A DNA stretch of 64,000 nucleotides from Periplaneta americana (lineage: Eukaryota; Arthropoda; Insecta; Blattodea; Blattidae), in assembly GCF_040183065.1 (NCBI RefSeq), contig NC_091120.1, positions 75,060,708-75,124,707 on the forward strand. Reading direction: 5' to 3'. Position 1 is the first letter of the stretch. Every line of letters starts with the position of its first letter. Shown piece after piece: positions 6,716-22,197 of the stretch. Under the pieces are notes generated by a model. It had not been told where the DNA came from. It worked only from the letters and a program-made list of their open reading frames with translations, and did no database searches. The translations under genes and the position numbers were made by a program.

Positions 6716-9239
6716 TTACTTTATACGAGCATATGTCCTTACTTTGACGAAAGTTTTCACCAAGTCACTACTCACACTAGGATCACTTGAACATATTAAA
6801 GAAACCAAGTTCTTCATAACTCCGACCCCTCTTCGAACCTCAGGTCCATGATAAGAACAAAAGCGTTTCTCCATTTCCTTTACGATGTCTAACCATTTGG
6901 ATGTCGGCTCTGTAAGTCCACCATATGACAAACTACGAATCCAGGAGACTAGACAGTAAGAACTATGATCTGTTTCTTCTGTATCTGTTCGGTGACCTAA
7001 GTTGGGATGAGTTTCACTATGTTTGTTTGCTATCCAACCAGCAATGTATCTCAAACCTTCAGCCTCCATTTCAGTTTCCTTTTCACCTACAATCGTTGAA
7101 CCCGAACTAGATGTGTCGTCTTCTTCTTGAATGAAGATGTCAGGAATAGAATTTTGTACTAAATCTGTACACTTTACACCACATGTACGAAGTAATTGGG
7201 ATGAAAGGTATTCCTCACTAGATTCAGTATGTGTATTCTTGTGTTTTTCTATATTTCCGGCATTATTGCCAAGAATGATCATTCGCAGGCGGTATAGAGA
7301 GTTTAATGGGGTAGGATGGTCGTATAAACCACCTCGAGAACGGATCTGGGAAAATAAATTCTCAAGTGAATCTTGGTTCAGACGATGAGTTAAAATATAT
7401 GTCACTCCTAGCTTTTGTACATCGAGAAGAAGATATTTCAAGGAAGATATAGATACAAGAATGGCTGTCTGAAATACCTGTTTTACTCGTTTACCCCCTG
7501 CATGTCATGCTATTAATAGTGTCACACATATTCTTCAAAATTTTATCTTGTTCTTCCAATTTAAGTCCATATGCATTTTTGCTAGGAACTTTAGAATGAG
7601 CTGGACTATAAGAATTCATGAGATCAAACCAATTATTTACAATTTCAATGAACTCACTCGTGTTTTCTGCGATAGATGAATCGCCACCAAGTTTAAAATG
7701 ACGTAAAGCAGTTGCAACACTATGTGACATTAATTCTGCAGCTTTCCTTACGTTCATTCTTTCAGTCCCCCTACAATTCAAGTGACTGGAATCGATTTTA
7801 TGGCATGCTTTAATTTCATGGTTGTCATCCTTAATGAGAGATTCCAAAGGTTCTTTCGAGACAATTTTTTCATTAGAAAACATGAAGCCTGTATCGAGGA
7901 GCCAGTTTCTGGTTAATTTCAAAAGGTGAGGGGCATCAGCAAGGAAATATATTCTTTCTGATGTTCTTGGGTTGTAGAACCATGTTTTTGTTGGATTAAC
8001 TTCATATTCTTTCCACAAACCTTGATTCGCTGCACCCATATCACAAACACAAGCTACTACTCTGTATCCTATCTCTGCAAGACGCGATACTAGATTATCT
8101 AATATAATTTTTGTCATATTTTTATCAAAATCAACATAAATTAATTGTTTCCAGTTCTTGAAGAGATTTCTCACCATCACTGCCTGCAATCTTGAATGAG
8201 GACCCACGATTTCATCCTTTAGAGAGTCGAACTCGTATGCACGTTTGACATGCACTTCGTCAAACTGAAGGACTGCAATTTTATCTGATTGTCCATATGT
8301 GATAGCAGCTATCTTCATCATTCCCAACATATCTTCGAGGATACCAGTTCCATTTCGCATGTCAATTTTCGAAGCCCATTTTTCCAACGTCGAAAGTCCA
8401 GGTAGTGGGTAATGCAATTTTTGCTTCATATAAATGTACGTTTTCTTCCCCAGATATCTTAGAGTAAAAGCTGCAGATATGTCTTTGTCAGTCCAATTCA
8501 CACGTTTTTGTTTGTTTGTCAGTACTTTTATCTGAGTTTTAGTAAAAATGTCCGAAAGACCATCGACCAATTTGTTATGAATATTATGAGCACAACGTTC
8601 TTTCTTCTTACATGCTATTAGTTCCTTCCGTAAATTATTTATTTTTGTACGGTGTTGCTGTAACTTCCTTTCAGCTGCCTTCAATTTTAAATTCAGAACA
8701 AGAGAAGTTTTTCTCTCTTCATCTAACTCCTTTTTCAATCTTTCAATTTCTTCGATCAGAGCCACTGCATTCTCATCACAGGTCTGGGAAGGTGGAGTGA
8801 CTGAAGGAGATGGTGAACTTAATGTAGAATTAGACATACAAATATCCGAATCCTGTAACATTTCTGTAACAACTTTCTTAAGATCTCTCTTTTCCTTCCT
8901 AATTTCTCGATCATACGACAATTGTTCTTTATATGTGTCGCGATCAACACCCAAATTTAGAGAAGGAATAGCATCTTTCTTAAGTATGCGTGTGGTAGGA
9001 AGTCCTAATAATTCGCTCTTTAGGTCTCGATCAAAATCGCTGGCATGAAAATGTTCGGAACACACTCTACACGAATCCGGATTCCATTTTCCGTCACGCC
9101 TACATCTCTGAATCCACTGTTTTCTTAATTCCTCATTTTTCGGAAAAGTGAAGTATTTTATATGACTTCTGGAATTGTCTTTCCTTGTTTTCGCCCAGCT
9201 GTTATTGCACACTGCAACAGTACACCTCATACCCGGCAT
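6716..9239 (-). pseudogene. P-element-type transposase with THAP domain, one frameshift
   Basis: DNA transposase of the P-element/THAP9 family, the cut-and-paste enzyme of its own transposon. The first frame (9239 to 7491, 582 codons) opens with a THAP zinc finger. C6, C11, C60 and H63 form the C2CH site, with P33, W42, F64 and a DAIPSL block at 89-94. A coiled-coil stretch follows at about 165-220. The RNase H-like core then shows QFDEVHV near residue 325, CDMGAANQG near 400 and LADAPHLLK near 434. The frame stops just after MTCRG. The next frame (ending 6716) carries THRLNQDSLENLFSQIRSRG, the family's C-terminal catalytic block, then a DHPTPL-type segment. A one-base slip in the G-run at about 7496 would join the frames, so damage or sequencing error cannot be told apart. 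The start is the only ATG that gives a whole THAP domain. TIRs and target duplications were not identified. Confidence 0.85.
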
Positions 9240-9804
9240 GGTTACTACTCACTGTAGTGTATTGCGTTATAGGACTACACAAACACGCGAAACATGACAG
9301 TAACTCAGCAGCTACGCTAGTTCACACAACTTAAGCAGAATAATGACACACTCACTAGTACAACACACTCACTAATAAAACAGTATATGCGTATTAAAAT
9401 TAATACAACCACTTGAAACTTAATGCATGTAAGTGTATTCTTATTGTTTGTATAGCAGAGTAGCAGACGACTGACCAAACGCGGTATCCCTGTGACGTCA
9501 TAATCCGAATGTAGCCGGAAACTGCCGAATACAAAACTCCTTAATGTGGACAACCTGAATGTAATAATCTTGGGTTTTCTGTGAAATTTATTAGAAAAAT
9601 TGCACTAAGCATTCAACACCGAACATTTTCATACACATTATATGCACGGAATTATTTTTAAGAATTAAGGGAGTGATTTTATTGGTTACTATAATACTAT
9701 TACTAGGACGAATAGAATTTAAAAGTCAGCTAACTGATATTAGTTATGTTCTACCGTTGCGCGGCGCTAGTTTCGTTAGCAGGCGATGCTTTTTGTAAAT
9801 AACC
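9240..9804. other. Upstream flank of the P-type transposase
   Basis: No coding signal. The stretch 9690-9780 contains CTATTCGTCCTAGTAATAG (reverse strand) and GCGCCGCGCAACGG (reverse strand). Similar blocks recur at 22690-22780 beside the second P-type relic, so this may be shared terminal sequence of that transposon family or a separate repeat. Confidence 0.35.
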
Positions 9805-10946: not shown

Positions 10947-11029
10947 TATACCTTATTTTATTTCAAGGAGTGCAGTTCGGTGTTCAAATAAGCCACCGAA
11001 CTGCACTCCTTGAAATAAAATAAGGTATA
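10947..11029. repeat. Perfect 36-bp inverted repeat (hairpin)
   Basis: Positions 10947-10982 and 10994-11029 are exact reverse complements, separated by an 11-base loop. The arm contains TTTCAAGGAGTGCAGTTCGG. Transcribed from either strand it would fold into a long mismatch-free stem. It lies outside any recognised transposon terminus. Confidence 0.9.
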
Positions 11030-11399: not shown

Positions 11400-11609
11400 C
11401 AATTATCACAATATACTTATGTGCTATCCCATTTTCTTTAAATAATAAAAGTAATAAACCAATTTCATCTATACCATGAATTAAAATGCATAATTCTGAT
11501 TGTTCCGATATAAATTGCAGTTGTTCAGTTATTAATGAAGTTAATGAGGTTAAATACTAAGGTATAATTATTGATAATCATTTAAAATGGAATAATCATA
11601 TTCATTATA
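11400..11609 (+). pseudogene. LINE reverse transcriptase, 5' piece before Helitron insertion
   Basis: Translated in one frame (with two stops) this reads NCSCSVINEVNEVKY, then GIIIDNHLKWNNHIHYI. That is the conserved region after the RT palm in CR1/Jockey-type LINEs (usually F-YLGV.ID..L.W..HI). The frame is cut in the middle of a codon at 11609 and resumes exactly at 16472. The first two thirds of the RT and any endonuclease domain are absent, so the LINE was 5'-truncated or decayed before the interruption. Confidence 0.75.
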
Positions 11610-13246
11610 TCTATACTAATAATAAATCTGTAGCCAAAATTTTTCTGGTAATTTTCGATTTTCCAAAAATAATTAGTGTTAACATGTATAATTAACCATC
11701 CTGAAACCGAAAATCGCTTTTTTGAAATTTTTGTATGTCTGTCTGTCTGTCTGTCTGGATGTTTGTTACCCTTTCACGCGATAATGGCTGAACCGATTTA
11801 TATGAAAATTGGAATATAAATTAAGTTCGTTTTAACTTAGATTTTAGGCTATATGACATTCAAAATACTGTATTTAAAACGGGGGTTATAAGGGGCTTGA
11901 ATTAAATAAATCGAAATATCTCCCTTATTATTAATTTTCATGAAAGATGTTACATAACAAAAGCTTTTTTAAAAATGATTTCATATAACTTTTACTCTAT
12001 GCAAAATTTTGATAGGACTGATATTTAATGAGATAAATGAGTTTTAAAATTAAAATAGCGCCATCTAAGGCGCTGCAATTAAATAAAAACAAATGACTTC
12101 GTCTATAAGGGGCTTTGGACAACAACAATCGAAAGCTATTAAACAAAGCCTACAGATAATGTGTCTGTGTTTGTTTGAAGTAATATCGAAAGCTAATTAA
12201 CCGATTTGTATAATTAATTATTATTTCACCATTGGAAAGTGTAGTTTCTCTAGATGGACATAATGCTATAATGTTATTACAGTAACTTCTGAGTGAATTG
12301 AGGACACGTAAGATTAAAATAGCTTCTTATGCACAGAAAACTTGATAGGCTATTCTGTATATTCGTTTCCTGTATTTCTTAAAACGCTAAACTGGAGAAT
12401 TCCCACGGTATCTTTGAACCGTGCCGTTACGTTTAGCACCAAATTTAAGTAAATACACAATCTTGCCAACCTAAGAACACGACGTCGGTGTGTGGCGTCG
12501 TTGGAGGGAGAAATTTGTTTCTTTTCTCTCTCTACCTCCTTCGTTCTGAACATTACTGAGAGATAGCACCACTGTTAGCTACAAGATATATTTGCGCAAA
12601 TATATTGAAGTAGATTACGTGACCTATTACGTGACTTAGATGAGAGTCTCGAGACAAAACGGTTTTGCTACATTTCTTTTTTTATTAAATGTTAAGCACA
12701 GGAACGCCATTTCGTAATTTTATTTAAGAAACAAGCCAAACAAATTATCTTTGCATCAAAAACGGATGCTCCCTGGACCAAATTATTGTATTTTATAATT
12801 GTTTGAATGCAACAGAAGCCAGAAGTCTTGCACTTGACTAATGCAGTGAATTATTTAAGAATATAGCCGCGAATTTTACTACCACCATTTCGATTGTGTT
12901 TTGTTTGGCACGGCTCGGTACGGCCTGGTGACTAGTGGCCAGCGAGTAACGTCGACTATCGACATTGCTCTGCCGTGGGTATTATCCAGTTGTTCCTTAA
13001 AATAATGTTTATGAACACATTAATTTTCATCTCAGAGAATTAACGAACAACGAGAGTGTATTGATTTAGTATGCAGTAGGCTAATAGTACGTTAGCTATT
13101 TATTTGTCTATGACGTTAGCTTAGCATTCCATTATTTTATAATTCAAATTTTAACTATGCTCAATTGAATGATGTTAAAATACATAAAATACGTATGCAA
13201 TGCAACAAAATTGGGTAATGAGCCAAGCAGATTACGTTGCGCTGTT
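11610..13246 (+). mobile_element. Helitron copy 1 (5' end present, 3' terminus missing)
   Basis: Matches the copies at 14.8, 15.8 and 17.3 kb from its first base. Its later part, 12975-13246, matches 18049-18274 of copy 4 up to the shared block GCGCTGTT, after which the sequences part. The hairpin and CTAG terminus found in copy 4 are absent here. Confidence 0.75.
12586..12605. repeat. 20-bp perfect palindrome
   Basis: ATATATTTGCGCAAATATAT is self-complementary. It lies in Helitron copy 1 sequence not shared with the other copies. No function is assigned. Confidence 0.7.
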
Positions 13247-13318
13247 CCTCCTGAGATTCAAGAGCCCCCACAACAAATTAAAAACCTACTTATCGGAGTA
13301 CATCCGTTATCAACACAT

Positions 13319-13416
13319 AATATAATATAATATAATATAATGTAATATAATGTAATATAATATAATATAATATAATATAATATAATATAATATAATATAA
13401 TATAATATAATATAAT
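13319..13416. repeat. (TATAA)n microsatellite
   Basis: Pentanucleotide array immediately upstream of the LINE ORF1 segment. A second TATAA array lies at its other end (about 15708-15772). Confidence 0.9.
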
Positions 13417-13493
13417 CAGTTCACAAAGTGCAGTCGTAGAGAACGGTTGTGTAATAAGCAGCATATACAAGTAGGTTAGCGTGTGAAGGAGAT

Positions 13494-14489
13494 ATGGGCG
13501 ACGACCTAAATTCTTACAGGGCGCGAATCGGGAGCTTCAATGCAGGGCAGTGTCGCAGATGTTCAAAAGGTGAAAATGCAATAGTGTCTGATAGAATCAA
13601 CATATTGGTGGCCGCGGCTGTTTTATCAATTCTACTGATTATTGGAAATGTGGAGTTAAACCCTGGGCCTGGAGATACAGAAGGAAGAGTCTACAGTGAT
13701 GAATTGTTTCAAAGAGAATGGATAATCTACATGAAAGAAACGAGAGAAGAGAGACAAAAGTCAAGTGTTCTACTAAACAAAGTAGCAAGTGATATAGATA
13801 CATTAGTAAACAGATACACTGAAGTGGAAAAGAAGTTAAAGGAGGTTATCCAAGAGCAGGTGGTGTTAAAATCCATAGTTAAAAAATGGGAAAATGATAG
13901 TAGAATTAATAACATTGTGATTTATGGTGTTGAAGAGTGCAATCATGAAAAAGGAATTGATACTGGTTTCGTATTGTTAGAATTATTAACTAATTATTTC
14001 AGTCTAAACTTGGACATAAGTGCGATAAATAATGCGTATAGAGTCGATAGCGGAAAAAAAAGACCAATTATTGTGAAATTGAACAGTTATTTCATCAAAG
14101 AGCACATCATTGCCAATACGCGTCAACTCAAAGGCACTAATATCTACATAGAAAATGACTTTGCAAAAGAAACGAGAGAGAAACGAAAGAAATTAATTCC
14201 AATATTAAAAGAAGCTCGAGGTAAAGGATTTAGGGCAACTTTAGTAAAAGATAAAATGAAGATAAACGGAAACATAGTTAACGTAGAGCCCTTAAATAAT
14301 CAAAATATTGAGGATTTATTCAGTTGCTGCAACAAGAACAGAAATAAGGAAATTGAGACTTGTGGAAATAGAGCATCATCTCCACCACACGTAAACAGAA
14401 GAAGTGCATCACGAAACAGGAAGTCTAGAAGCGTAGAGAGGACTGATAAGAAAGTAACTCATCAAGTGGGCAGAAGCAATCAGAAATAG
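13494..14489 (+). CDS. LINE ORF1 protein with 2A-like motif
   Basis: Nucleic-acid-binding ORF1 protein of a non-LTR retrotransposon, 331 codons, uninterrupted. A short Cys-containing N-terminus (CRRC at 20-23) is followed by a hydrophobic stretch and GNVELNPGPG at 51-60. This resembles 2A ribosome-skipping peptides (D-V/I-E-x-N-P-G-P) but has Asn where the Asp belongs. A coiled coil covers about 75-130. An RRM-like/C-terminal region begins near RINNIVIYGVEE (about 139) and runs to about 260, then a basic Ser/Arg-rich tail. The ATG follows an in-frame stop-free leader after the TATAA array. Just before the stop another frame opens and continues the protein-like sequence to 14766. CR1/L2-type ORF1 is the closest match by eye; the clade is uncertain. 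Confidence 0.75.
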   Translation: MGDDLNSYRARIGSFNAGQCRRCSKGENAIVSDRINILVAAAVLSILLIIGNVELNPGPGDTEGRVYSDELFQREWIIYMKETREERQKSSVLLNKVASDIDTLVNRYTEVEKKLKEVIQEQVVLKSIVKKWENDSRINNIVIYGVEECNHEKGIDTGFVLLELLTNYFSLNLDISAINNAYRVDSGKKRPIIVKLNSYFIKEHIIANTRQLKGTNIYIENDFAKETREKRKKLIPILKEARGKGFRATLVKDKMKINGNIVNVEPLNNQNIEDLFSCCNKNRNKEIETCGNRASSPPHVNRRSASRNRKSRSVERTDKKVTHQVGRSNQK

Positions 14490-15707
14490 CAAATAGAAGA
14501 ATTGATGAGCTTACAGGAGTGAATGATATAAGAGCATACCTTAGTAAACTAGAGAACACTGTTTTCTCAGATCCCTTTAGAAGAAAGAAGAGTGAAGAAG
14601 GAAAGCCTAGTGTGGAAGAAGATGCTGGAACCAGTGAAGATGCTGTTTGGGGAGCTGTGGCACAGACTGAGAGAACGACCAGTGAGGGTAGTCTGAGGCG
14701 CGCGAGTGAAAATACAACAAGGAGAAGCGATGGTGGATCAACCGGCAAGGTCAGCGCAAGTGAAGATCTATACTAATAATAAATCTGTAGCCGAAATTTT
14801 TCTGGTAATTTTTTTATTTTCCAAAAATAATTGGTCCTAACATATATAATTAACCACTCTGAAACCGAAAATCACTTTTTTGAAATTTTTGTTTGTATGT
14901 CTGTCCGTTTGTCTGTCTGTCTAGATGTTTGTTACCTTTTCACGCGATAATGGCTGAACCGATTTATATGAAAATTGGAATGTAAATTAAGTTCGCTGTA
15001 ACTTAGATTTTAGGCTATATGACATTCAAAATACGTTATTTAAAAGGGGGGTTATAAGGGGGCCTGAATTAAATAAATCGAAATATCTCGCTTATTATTG
15101 ATTTTTGTGAAATATGTTACATATCAAAGTTTCTTTAAAAATGATTTCCGATAAGTTTTATTACTTGCAAAATTTTGATATGACTGATAAATGAGTTTTA
15201 AAATTAAAATACAATGCCATCTAAGGCGGTGAAATGAAATGAAAACAAATGACTACGTCTATAAGGGGCCTTGGACAACAACAATCGAAAGCTATGAAAC
15301 ATAGCCTACAGAGAATGTTTCTGTGTTTGTATGAAGTAATATCGAAAACTAAATTAACCGATTTGTATAATTAATTATTATTTCACCATTGGAAAGTGTA
15401 GTTTCTCTAGATGGACATAATGCTATAATGTTATTACAGTAACTTCTGAGTGCCCTCTGGACCAAAATGATCGCATTTTAATTATTTAAATACAATTTAA
15501 ATTAAGCAACATATTAAACGATTTATCCTTCTATCAAACACGAATGTTCCCTGGATCAAACGTCCAATTTTAATTATTTAATTACTTTATATTTATTTCT
15601 AACTGGTGCAGCGGAGCGCACGGGTACGGCTAGTCAGTTAATAAGAATGCCACAGACCGTTGGTAGTCCGGGGTGCTCGAGAGGAAGTACTACGATATGG
15701 AGGAAAA
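14466..15707 (+). pseudogene. Continuation of LINE ORF1 in a shifted frame, split by Helitron copy 2
   Basis: From about 14468 a second frame reads SEIANRRIDELTG and then an acidic, Ser/Thr-rich region to ASED at 14766. It resumes after Helitron copy 2 at 15634 as QLIRMPQTVGS and runs to the TATAA array. The join across the Helitron keeps the frame (GAT + CAG). The shift relative to ORF1 is either a mutation or the overlap of a second frame. No endonuclease motif is seen. Confidence 0.5.
14767..15633 (+). mobile_element. Helitron copy 2, complete short element
   Basis: Begins TCTATACTAATAATAAATCT after A and ends GCGCACGGGTACGGCTAG before T. The subterminal 3' sequence GTGCAGCGGAGCGCAC gives the GC-rich hairpin typical of Helitron ends. 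Length 867 bp with no coding capacity. It is inserted in the LINE ORF1-derived segment, whose frame rejoins on removal. Confidence 0.85.
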
Positions 15708-15772
15708 AAAATATAATATAATATAATATAATATAATATAATATAATATAATATAATATAATATAATATAAT
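15708..15772. repeat. (TATAA)n microsatellite
   Basis: Array abutting the 5' end of Helitron copy 3, whose first bases merge into it. Confidence 0.9.
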
Positions 15773-16471
15773 ATATACTAATAATAAATCTCTAACCAAA
15801 ATTTTTCTGGCAATTTTCGCTTTTCCAAAAATAATTGGTGTTAACATGTATAATTATTCATTCCGAGACCGAAAATCGCTTTTTTGAAATTTTTGTTTGT
15901 ATGTTTGTCTGTCTAGATGTTCGTTACCTTTTCACGCGATAATGGCTGAACGGATTTCGATGAAAATTGGAATATAAATTAATTTCGTTGTAAGTTAGAT
16001 TTTAGGCTATATGGCATTCAAAATACTTTATTTAAAAGGGGGGGTTATAAGGGGGCCTGAATTAAATGAACCGAAATATATCGCTTATTATTGATTTTTG
16101 TGAAAAATGTTACATAACAAAAGTTTCTTCAAAAATGATTTCCGATACGTTTCATTCCAAGCAAAATTTTGATGGGACCAAATTGCACCAAAAACGGATG
16201 TTCTCTGAACCAAATGATCATATTTTAATTATTTGCATGTAATAACAATTAAGAAACATGTTAAAGGAGTTATCATTGCACTAAATGAGTGCTCTCTGGA
16301 CCAAAATGATCGCTTTTAATTATTTAAATACAATTTAAATTAAGTGACATATTAAACGATTTATCCTCCTATCAAACACGAATGTTCCCTGGACCAGATG
16401 TCCTAATTTAATTATGTAATTACTTTATATTTATTTCTAATAAGTGCAGCGAAGCGCACGGGTACAGCTAG
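15773..16471 (+). mobile_element. Helitron copy 3 (degraded 5' end, intact 3' end)
   Basis: The first bases read TATATACTAATAATAAATCT, one substitution from the canonical TC start. The 3' end GCGCACGGGTACAGCTAG is followed by T. This copy provides the right boundary of the composite 11610-16471. Confidence 0.8.
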
Positions 16472-17240
16472 TTTGTAATAAATTACGTAAACATTGTTAC
16501 TTTGTTGTTCTGGGAAATATTTTGTCAATTAACTGTTTACGTATAATTTATTTAGCATTATTTCAATCTATATTTATGTATGGTATTATAGGTTGGGGTG
16601 GAACTTATAAATTCAACCTTTATCCGATAATTTTACTACAGAAAAAAGTATTAAACATTTGTTTAAAAAAGCAGAAAAATTACCCGACTGAATTGTTGTT
16701 TAAACATTTCAAAGTTTTCAACATTAAACAAATGTATTATTTTATTTTATTTTATTAAAATATTTTCATAGAAATTTTAATAACTTTGAAAGGTATGTAC
16801 ACAAATATAGAACTAAAAATATGAATTCTCTGCGTTTTTCTGAACCAAAATGTAAAACCAATGCAGCTTTTTATCATAGCATGAGTCAAGGTGCCAGATT
16901 ATTAACAATTTTTATTCTAATATAATTTTTACCACGAATCCCCTCCAAATTAATAAAAAAAAAATAAAAAAATTGTATTGAATTTATAGTTTGGGTTTAA
17001 ACATATTCAACAGTTTTTAATCTGTATTCACTCTCAATTTTAATTTTATTTTTGTCTGTATTGGAATCCCCTCCTGAGCACGAGTCTTACTCATTCAGGA
17101 GTGGGCTAGTTTATCTTTCATTGTATTTATTAACTTGCATTAATTTTATTTCAAACTTACTACCAACTTACAAGTACTCTTGCATCAAGGAAATACTGCA
17201 TCTTCTATCCTGTGTTATAACAACAATGACTTGTTTAAGA
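16472..17240 (+). pseudogene. LINE reverse transcriptase, 3' piece after Helitron
   Basis: Continues the frame cut at 11609: CNKLRKHCYFVVL, then ALFQSIFMYGIIGWGGTYKF. This is the thumb/C-terminal region of CR1/Jockey-type RTs (L-SI..YGI..WG). It runs on, with a frame break near 16757, through MSQGARLL near 16890. A probable 3' UTR reaches 17240, and the next Helitron begins directly after a TATTA-type array. Confidence 0.75.
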
Positions 17241-17263
17241 TAAGAGTAATATTATATTATATT

Positions 17264-18373
17264 ATATAAATAATAAATCTGTAGCCGAAATGTTTCTGGT
17301 AATTTTCGATTTTCCAAAAATAATTGGTCCTAACATATATAATTAACCACCCTGAAACCGAAAATCGCATTTTTGAAATTTTTGTTTCTATGTCTGTCTG
17401 TATGTTTGTTACCTTTTCACGCGATAATGGCCGAACCGATTTATATGAAAATTGGAATATAAATTAAGTTCGTTGTAACTTAGATTTTAGGCTATATGGC
17501 ATCCAAAATACTTTATTTAAAAGGGGGTTATAAAGGGGCCAGAATTAAATAAATCGAAATATCTCTCTTATTATTGATTTTTGTGAAAAATGTTACATAA
17601 CAAAAGTTTCTTCAAAAATGATTTCCGATAAGTCTTATTCTTTACAAAATTTTGATAGGACTGATATTTAATGAGATAAATGAGTTTTAAAATTAAAATA
17701 ACGCCATCTAATACGGTGCAATGAAATAACAAATGACTTCGTCTATAAGGAGCCTTGGACAACAACAATCGAAACAGGGGCCTTGGACATCAACAATCGA
17801 AAGCTATTAAACATAGCCTACAGAGAATGTTTCTGTGTTTGTGTGAAGTAATATCAGAAGCTAAATTAACCGATTTGTATAATTAATTACTATTTCACCA
17901 TTGGAAAGCGTAGTTTCTCTAGATGGACATAATGCTATAATGTTATTACAGTAACGTCTGAGTAAATCGAGGACAGGTAAGATTAAAATAGCTTCTTATG
18001 CACAGAAAATTTGATAGGCTATTTTGTACATTCGTTTTCTGTATTTCTTAAAATAATATTTATGTACACTCATTTTAATCTCAGAGAATTAACGAACAAC
18101 GAGAGTGTATTGACTGAGTATGCAGTAATAGTACGTTAGCTTAGCAATCCATTATTTTATAATTCAAATTTTAACTATGTTCAATTGAATCGTGTTAAAA
18201 TGCATAAAATATATATGCAATAAATGCAATGCAAAAAAAATTGGGTAATGAGCGAAGCAGATTATGTTGCGCTGTTGTAAAAGTTGTTCCCTGGATCAAA
18301 CGTCCTAATTTAATTATGTAATTACTTTATATTTATTTCTAACAGGTGCAGCGGAGCGCACGGGTACGGCTAG
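17264..18373 (+). mobile_element. Helitron copy 4, full length
   Basis: The 5' start lies within a TATAT-rich edge, so the exact first base is uncertain. From ATAATAAATCTGTAGCCG it matches the other copies. The 3' end is GCGCACGGGTACGGCTAG before T. It includes the block (18049-18274) that copy 1 also has and copies 2 and 3 lack, so it represents the longer version of the family. No Rep/helicase coding. Confidence 0.85.
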
Positions 18374-20280: not shown

Positions 20281-22197
20281 GTGACAAAAGAATATTGTGT
20301 GGTGGTTTACAAAATAATTACAAAAATTCCGTACTGTTTTATTTCGGGTTATAGATCGGAATACAATAGAAATAGTGTAACAAGACATTTCTTTTCATCT
20401 CCCAAAGAAAAAGATGAGTTTGGAAAATGGGCCAGAGCGATTCCGCGGAAAGCTAGTCAGCTTTTGGTAAATAACCGATCAGACTGTTTTAATATAAAAC
20501 GTCATAAGATAGAAATACCGCGAATGCGTTGAAAATTACAACAAGAGTTGTATCTCACATTTTCCCTAATTTACCGAAATGATGAAACATATGAAAATAA
20601 ACGTTAAGGAATGGTAATATTCGACGAGGTCCAATTCAGAGAATAAATTCAATTTAATAATTATTCCCTTAAAGTGTACGTATTTGTTGATTTCGGAGAT
20701 CTCGCGTCTGATGTCCAAAAGAAACAATTAGAAAATCATGCATTACTATTTATGCAAGATTGGATTCAACCAATTACGCTAGCAGAAACGCTACCCCAGG
20801 TGATATTCTCGCTAAAATTCTTATATAAATTATACTACAATTACAAGCAATTGGGACGAGAGTAGTCGGTTTCACTTGTGATGGCAGTCAAACAAATAGA
20901 AAGGCCTGGAAGTCTTAGAAATCAATGGAAACAATTTCCAGCATAATACTATATTCCTAATCTGTTCGACGAAAAAAAGAAAGATACGGGCATTCTCAGA
21001 TGTTGTGCACATACTGAAATGCATAAGAAATTATTTCCATGATAAAATCGAACTCTCTTGCAAGGAGAAAAATATCAATTTTAGTTTTTATAGGAAACTT
21101 TTTAAGGAAAACTTATCTGGATGGGCGAATGTATAGGGTTTGTCCCAAGTTGACAACGGCTCATTTAGATCTCTCGTCCTTTAAGAGAATGAATGCCACC
21201 AGACTCGCGTTCCAACTCTTCAGCAACAGTGTCGCCAAAGGCCTCAAATTTTATCGAGAAGTAAGGTCATTGGGTTTCGAAGGCAGTGAGGACACTGAAG
21301 AATTTACAAGGCATTTAAACTGTATTGCCGCCGCATTAAATTCACACATTTCTGCTAAGGCTCTTTATAAAGACTCTTCTGATCACAAATTTCTTACCGA
21401 TTTTCTTCAGTGTCTCTCAACTACAACCAACACATTTGCATCAGCTACAGCAATGTTTAGTAGTAATCTTGCAGAGTACCTTAGAAATGAGCGAATGACT
21501 CTGGAGCAAAGGATATAAATATATCCTAACAGGGAAAAACTTGCCCAAGATCCCTTGGAACATCACTTCGGAATTTTGTCTTGACTAAGTTCAGATGACC
21601 ATCCTTCGAAGATAGATTTCCTCCATATGCATTTACTACGAAGTAGATCATTCTTAACATTGCTGGAAACTCTGAAACGAAAAATGTTGATGAACTACTC
21701 ACATCATTAAATTTGTGAACCAAATTCGAACATTAGCGCGAAATGTGGAATTACTCAACAAGACAATTAAGAAGTCTGTAGAAACTTGTATAAAAGAAAA
21801 AAAAATGTTATTCATGAAAAAATACATGCTCAATAGGTACTTTGAAAGTGCTGCGCCCGAGTTGGTGAATACCACTCCTGTTGCGTTGATTGATAGATGT
21901 TTAGTGCATTATGTGGCCGGTTATGTCGTAAATCATTCCTCTAAGTTTATTGCGTGTACCCTCTGTGCCCTTCGACAGGAATGTAATAGGTCTAAATATT
22001 GTGCAGCTCTCACCCAAATCAAAGACTACGGATCAGGTAGGAACGTCAGTTTTTTAACTCATCCCTCCCAAGCTGTGTATGACGTACTTATTCAAACAGA
22101 ATTGAAAATTAAAGAAAAGATTAGCTCAGCAAGTGCAATGTGGGATGACATCTATCTTGACGCTCTTTCGATCCAGTCTTCGGGAGCAGGTTGTTGA
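20281..22197 (+). pseudogene. Second P-element/THAP9-type transposase, decayed
   Basis: Pieces of a P-type transposase lie in order but in several frames with many stops. First comes a THAP-like segment (20281-20530) with HFFSSPKEKDEFGKWARAI, a divergent form of the F-P....W..A zinc-finger pattern. Next are VFVDFGDLASDVQKK and DWIQPITL (20689-20790), which match the core after the first catalytic block. Then HLDLSSFKRMNATRLAFQLF and GFEGSEDTEEFTRHLN (21160-21320), the family's all-helical region. Last are a DHPSFEDF-like block near 21600 and LVHYVAGYVVNHSSKFIAC with a Cys pair at 21900-21970. It resembles THAP9 more than the gene at 6.7-9.2 kb does, so it is another lineage. The RLNQD..E..F catalytic block is not recognisable. 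Confidence 0.7.

Follow-up and report, generated by a model that had tools for sequence, protein, structure and literature searches.

Helitrons with multiple 5′ termini have been described in Fusarium oxysporum and in maize. In the FoHeli Helitrons of F. oxysporum, several 5′ termini share one 3′ terminus, and the authors of that study propose that, where two Helitrons are nested, the 5′ terminus farthest to the left is nicked and transposition runs from there to the first 3′ terminus (PMC5148889). In maize, 17.6% of HelA Helitrons have multiple 5′ termini, and multiple termini were ascribed to nested Helitrons (PMC3288121). Here we analysed a 64,000-nucleotide stretch of the Periplaneta americana genome (contig NC_091120.1, positions 75,060,708 to 75,124,707, forward strand; hereafter the window, whose numbering is used throughout) and describe a block at 11610–16471 that is very probably one copy of a multi-copy, non-autonomous Helitron with two 5′ heads, which landed once and was later filled by other elements. 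The window element is of the same kind as the Fusarium and maize Helitrons with multiple 5′ termini. It shares with FoHeli several 5′ termini and one 3′ terminus; in FoHeli the duplicated 5′ stretch is typically shorter than 200 bp, whereas head 1 here measures ~1.1 kb, head 2 reaches at most ~0.4 kb, and the heads are mostly joined by (TATAA)n. The two-headed family was not named in the titles and opening lines of abstracts surveyed, which included no search aimed specifically at its prior description.

Canonical Helitron termini bound the block. The 5′ end at 11610 reads A|TCTATACTAATAATAAATC, with the TC in place, and the 3′ end at 16471 reads GGGTACAGCTAG|T, with CTAG at 16468–16471; the limits proposed in the initial annotation of this stretch were thereby borne out. 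The A before and the T after the block indicate a standard Helitron landing with outer ends at 11610 and 16471. The landing target was a long interspersed nuclear element (LINE)-like repeat on the plus strand, which is left at 11460–11609 and resumes at 16472–16621. When 300 bases from each side of the block were joined, a reading frame crossed the junction with one in-frame stop. Like the initial annotation, we assign this frame to a putative LINE reverse transcriptase, of which it would be the terminal portion; its continuity upon removal of the block holds, and the right-hand 95 residues gave zero Pfam matches. Searching the genome (3.23 Gb, 91 contigs) with the joined 150 + 150 bases returned 2058 candidates, and all 40 that were scored matched across the junction with 94–96% identity (spanning 1–300 in 37 cases, 3–300 in two, and 1–299 in one). 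The empty LINE site that had been suggested as a check was exact in all five loci compared nucleotide by nucleotide (...CATTATA|TTTGTAATAA...); the junction showed neither gain nor loss of bases, as expected of insertion between A and T without a target-site duplication (TSD). The outer ends mark one single landing inside the LINE-like repeat. Four Helitron heads lie on the same strand of the region (11610, 14767, 15772, and ~17261), together with three 3′ ends of Helitrons (15633, 16471, and 18373). A hairpin ~10–12 nt ahead of the 3′ end is a hallmark of Helitrons; the same 6-pair stem with a bulge was found 12 nt from the end in all three 3′ ends that were folded, with a stability like that of shuffled sequences (z of −0.49, −0.05, and 0.04).

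Head 1 occupies 11610–12384 and, after a 608-bp insert, 12993–13311 on the plus strand, and is followed by the left portion of a (TATAA)n tract (13312–13416). Beyond further inserts, an A-run and the right portion of the tract, as read from the sequence (15706–15771), lead into 15772–16471 (plus strand), which begins with head 2 (TATATACTAATA at its start, where TC is absent) and closes with the only outer 3′ end, ...CGAAGCGCACGGGTACAGCTAG. This head behind the second (TATAA)n tract was absent from the initial annotation. A query taken from 12990–13316 gave 2754 candidates in the genome, of which 40 were scored, one being the window itself; ranks 2 to 17, that is, 16 of the 39 others, served as sibling loci. 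Head 1 was found in all 16 siblings (K5_102 lacks positions 39–309, a 271-bp internal gap), at least four TATAA units followed it in 13, and a second head in the same orientation lay downstream in 12, mostly across (TATAA)n. The internal junction of the window's head 2 is common to K5_102, K9_137, K2_027, and K9_41, in the last case after an extra segment. Another form of head 2, with position 75 joined to 468, is present in K5_169, K12_43, K1_52, K12_166, and K17_136; each of these five copies has both heads, opens with TC at its outer start, and closes with CTAG|T, and their flanks differ. Further two-headed forms occur in K3_191, K7_97, and K8_109, which is without the outer TC. The family thus has two 5′ ends in the same orientation and one 3′ end, and is multi-copy with different flanks. 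Siblings that carry two heads between different flanks show that the two-headed Helitron was copied as a unit, whose layout is an outer 5′ end (head 1, ~1.1 kb), (TATAA)n, a second 5′ head, and a single 3′ end.

The same block might instead have been built on the spot, by an ordinary landing of head 1 and insertion of head 2, after which a deletion reaching from one 3′ end to the other left a single one. An exact empty site is expected from such local nesting as well, but four other loci repeat the arrangement of head 1, (TATAA)n, and head 2, down to the internal junction of head 2, so the two-headed form most likely predates this landing; moreover, the outer flanks that were read differ, unlike those of segmental duplicates. 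We regard local assembly followed by deletion as extremely improbable. K7_97 is a two-headed copy with a complete short Helitron at its (TATAA)n (TATA|TC..CTAG|TAATATAATA), which shows that this spot does receive Helitron insertions. K14_120 and K5_5 were considered as a single-headed parent; they may instead be deletion forms, because K8_109 has a second head together with their segment, and K7_97 has a second head together with the start of that segment. At K7_118 (L061, reverse complement 1–210), a Helitron 3′ end (...ACAGCTAG) abuts a head 1 without its first four bases, giving a head-to-tail Helitron pair. The (TATAA)n zones of K5_5 (L060) and K11_92 (L044) contain an additional segment that is similar in both, GGAACCC..AGGTTCA.TGCCGCCC...; it may be a short interspersed nuclear element.

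The start motifs of the two heads differ. By a scripted rule, TC stands at the outer start in 13/17 copies (the window included), at 0/13 inner starts, which were positioned by eye, and at 19/20 starts of the solo short family (ranks 2 to 21, fetched from 40 scored among 2282 candidates). K9_137 starts TTCATACTAATAA at the outer and ATCTTACTAATAA at the inner head and may keep the TC with one base missing after it; if it is counted, the figures become 14/17 and 1/13. Maize HelA differs in this respect, since its pseudo and true 5′ termini are reported without distinct differences. An intact TCTATAC is missing from the inner starts of all 13 copies read, so initiation at the outer start probably holds the unit together, and loss of the inner TC would silence the inner start. 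The internal junction of head 2 was found in 0/20 of the short copies, though these had been chosen by likeness to head 1. The two-headed form most likely originated when a Helitron that lacked its 3′ part came to lie upstream of a second Helitron, or was invaded by one, at the A+T-rich (TATAA)n. Transposition would then have run from the first start through the second finish. The origin of the form would accordingly lie in bypass or in self-insertion at the (TATAA)n.

Between the two portions of the tract lies an element that the initial annotation had called a LINE ORF1. Its 5′ part occupies 13417–14766, and after an intervening Helitron (14767–15633) it resumes at 15634–15705 (both on the plus strand) and ends early at GGAGGAA. 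Both the long frame (13494–14489) and the Helitron after it are present as described. The frame, putatively that of an ORF1-type protein, contains GNVELNPGP, a probable 2A-like ribosome-skipping motif; Pfam returned just two unrelated matches for the protein, both below the cut-off. The element is abundant. Of 534 candidates, 40 were scored, one being the window; the 39 other copies are 94–95% identical, and 35 of them share the first base. Two copies read whole (L029 and L030, ~2.38 kb) end in (AATATGTC)n and are flanked by the TSDs ACTTCGGATAT and CAGTGATATACT. L029 has one open reading frame (ORF), of 511 aa (428–1963), and no second forward frame longer than 80 aa was found in L029 or L030. 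A uniform 5′ start, together with the 3′ repeat tail and TSDs of the two whole copies, suggests that this is perhaps an ORF1-only retrotransposon. ORF1-only derivatives of LINEs such as mammalian HAL1 likewise have one ORF1-like frame, and L029 and L030 are similarly without a second long forward frame; the P. americana element, whose resemblance to them may be one of form only, differs in its 2A-like motif and the absence of Pfam matches above the cut-off.

The initial annotation had proposed that a Helitron without its terminator read on through ORF1-containing DNA until it met the 3′ end of another Helitron, which would make the ORF1 captured cargo. A single 5′ end, a single 3′ end, and an exact empty site are what such a capture would leave, the ORF1 piece is no less diverged than the Helitron parts, and read-through has been established in Helraiser (PMC4778049). 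The siblings argue otherwise: they join the same two heads by (TATAA)n, and ORF1 was found in none of the 16 (matches of at least 60 bases and more than 78% identity were listed, with K11_92 and K12_43 read for only ~530 bases beyond head 1), nor was the 608-bp segment. In the window the ORF1 element occupies a tract where siblings have uninterrupted (TATAA)n, and it has mobility hallmarks of its own, including the start shared among copies and the TSDs of the two copies read whole. Nor is the first Helitron copy cut at GCGCTGTT (13246), where it was said to have lost its 3′ terminus. The sequence continues for ~65 bases to ~13311 and then passes into (TATAA)n, and all 39 other loci scored with the query 12990–13316 cross GCGCTGTT and reach query position 320 or further, although this query includes sequence beyond GCGCTGTT and would therefore pass over deleted copies such as that at 17.3 kb. 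All six loci that were read onward continue through a frame remnant (KLGNEPSRLRCAVPPEIQEPPQQIKNLLIGVHPLSTH in the window) into (TATAA)n. Capture of the ORF1 by read-through is thus very improbable; what stands of the proposal is the single landing and the occurrence elsewhere of a unit running from the 5′ end of copy 1 to the next Helitron 3′ end. A two-headed Helitron that moved as a unit is compatible with read-through models.

The frame remnant may resemble the start of a Helitron-like N domain, and its 38 aa gave no match in Pfam. This remnant of ~35 codons is all that the block contains of the RepHel transposase of an autonomous Helitron, and no ORF of at least 90 aa lies wholly within the Helitron parts of the block. 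The 17.3-kb copy is the neighbouring Helitron D (17261–18373, plus strand), a relative of head 1 outside the block with a degenerate 5′ end. It skips from ...GTTGTTCC straight to CTGGATC..., and TGTTCCCTGGA is present also in the Helitron 3′ region. The Helitron 3′ region also has TGTTCC ahead of CTGGA, and D is therefore the internally deleted copy.

The ORF1 element might also have been passive cargo, having entered the (TATAA)n of a donor copy before the loaded two-headed element moved to its present site. The 5′ flanks of 31 of the 39 other ORF1 copies were read (in sets of 11 and 20; L082 is 5′-truncated, and L064 and L068 share one flank), and 0/31 lie in (TATAA)n. This, and the lack of another loaded copy among the 16 sibling loci, argues against transport as cargo, with which the divergence figures are compatible; we consider it improbable, though somewhat less so than capture by read-through. 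Elsewhere (L076/L089) the ORF1 element sits within a Helitron, at head position 620. Most likely, then, the ORF1 element came on its own, as a stowaway. The (TATAA)n was considered as its 3′ tail and ruled out, since L029 and L030 extend ~950 bp farther and finish in (AATATGTC)n.

The two remaining inserts were compared with unoccupied sites. Helitron copy B (14767–15633, plus strand) is complete from TC to CTAG and lies between A and T within the ORF1 element; its site is unoccupied in L029 and L030 (GAAGA|TCAATTTATAAG). The earlier statement that this copy was inserted later holds for its nesting inside the ORF1 element, and its arrival after the landing is probable. The 608-bp segment in head 1 (12385–12992), unmentioned in the initial annotation, resembles a miniature inverted-repeat transposable element: it has 19-nt subterminal inverted repeats (12390–12408 and 12973–12991) that are 89% identical, and it is bordered by TTCTTAAAA and TTCCTTAAAA. 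In all 16 siblings the segment is missing, and head-1 positions 775 and 1384 adjoin directly. Within it, 12716–12812 is ~71–81% like repeat units near Helitron 3′ ends, so the insert may itself be composite.

Several observations weigh against the reading of the block as a two-headed unit with later arrivals. Two of the 16 siblings (K14_120 and K5_5) showed no second head, and K11_92 and K7_118 were not followed to their ends, so that two-headedness is not demonstrated for every relative. Some 3′ ends are damaged or missing: K5_102 terminates in CTAT, K2_027 has lost its 3′ end, none was found in the part of K3_191 that was read, and the outer 3′ end of K7_97 was not reached. The ORF1 piece of the window comprises the 5′ ~1.4 kb of the element and is 5′-complete, but is without ~950 bp of the 3′ end, being cut at GGAGGAA before an A-run and (TATAA)n (15700–15712); the usual truncation of LINEs runs the opposite way. 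Because both of its flanks are (TATAA)n, no TSD can be proved for this copy, and retrotransposition at the site is only a probable reading. Neither of the putative labels LINE and ORF1 is backed by Pfam. Finally, the ORF1 piece has 59 private changes in ~1.4 kb, compared with 34/1051 and 20/695 for the Helitron parts (counts based on 12 short copies picked by hand from the 20, several of those passed over being truncated or insert-bearing, and on a subtype-1 set that excluded K9_41), figures that do not establish the ORF1 piece as younger than the landing. Dating by divergence was set aside as uninformative, since copy B, necessarily younger than the ORF1 piece, differs from its consensus at 53/847 positions, compared with 46/1060 for head 1.

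Taken with the sibling evidence, the favoured course of events is as follows. By the rolling-circle route established for Helitrons, the two-headed unit landed once, from its outer 5′ end through its single 3′ end, between an A and a T in the LINE-like repeat, as the empty site shows. Thereafter the 608-bp inverted-repeat segment would have entered head 1, the ORF1-type element the (TATAA)n, and the short Helitron B the ORF1 element. Sibling loci or copies without each insert suggest that all of these postdate the landing. Nesting after a single landing, which the initial annotation had kept as its main alternative, better fits the ORF1 element, copy B, and the 608-bp insert; and within the 16 siblings read the ORF1 never occurs between these ends, a result that the annotation itself had named as part of what would count against capture.

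Elsewhere in the window, two long open frames on the minus strand at 6716–9248 (262 and 585 aa), with Pfam matches to THAP, P-element HTH (helix-turn-helix), RNase H-like, and GTP-binding-domain entries, are a P-element-type transposase in two overlapping frames. A further fragment of a P-element-type transposase (Pfam TNP-like_GBD match) lies at 21027–21518 on the plus strand, and 10947–11029 is a perfect inverted repeat of 36 nt with arms 11 nt apart.

Compared with other Helitron systems, the block differs from the read-through of Helraiser and Helibat1, which consists of experimental events (PMC4778049), in belonging to a two-headed family that has been copied many times and for which capture of a gene is not demonstrated. 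The stepwise acquisition described for Sfru_Hel1A (PMC6544945) likewise involves Helitron forms distinguished by extra segments in their interior; that study reads the additions as filler DNA at breaks, whereas in the present family copy B and the K7_97 Helitron, at least, are nested as whole elements. Tentatively, and with considerable doubt, the (TATAA)n might be viewed as a Helitron-borne landing pad that draws A|T-seeking Helitrons and other elements to one fixed place. Repeated insertion into this microsatellite of its own would let the lineage exchange its 3′ half or what it carries, with control remaining at the outer start as inner starts lose their TC. Such a pad would fit the insertions at this spot in the window (the ORF1 element) and in K7_97 (a Helitron), and the extra segments in K11_92, K5_5, and K9_41. 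Gene capture by Helitrons, when judged from single loci, could be counted too often; here the comparison of siblings gives a two-headed Helitron with stowaways. A natural multi-copy family with two heads, in which the outer TC is mostly kept and the inner one mostly is not, bears on what initiates Helitron transposition.

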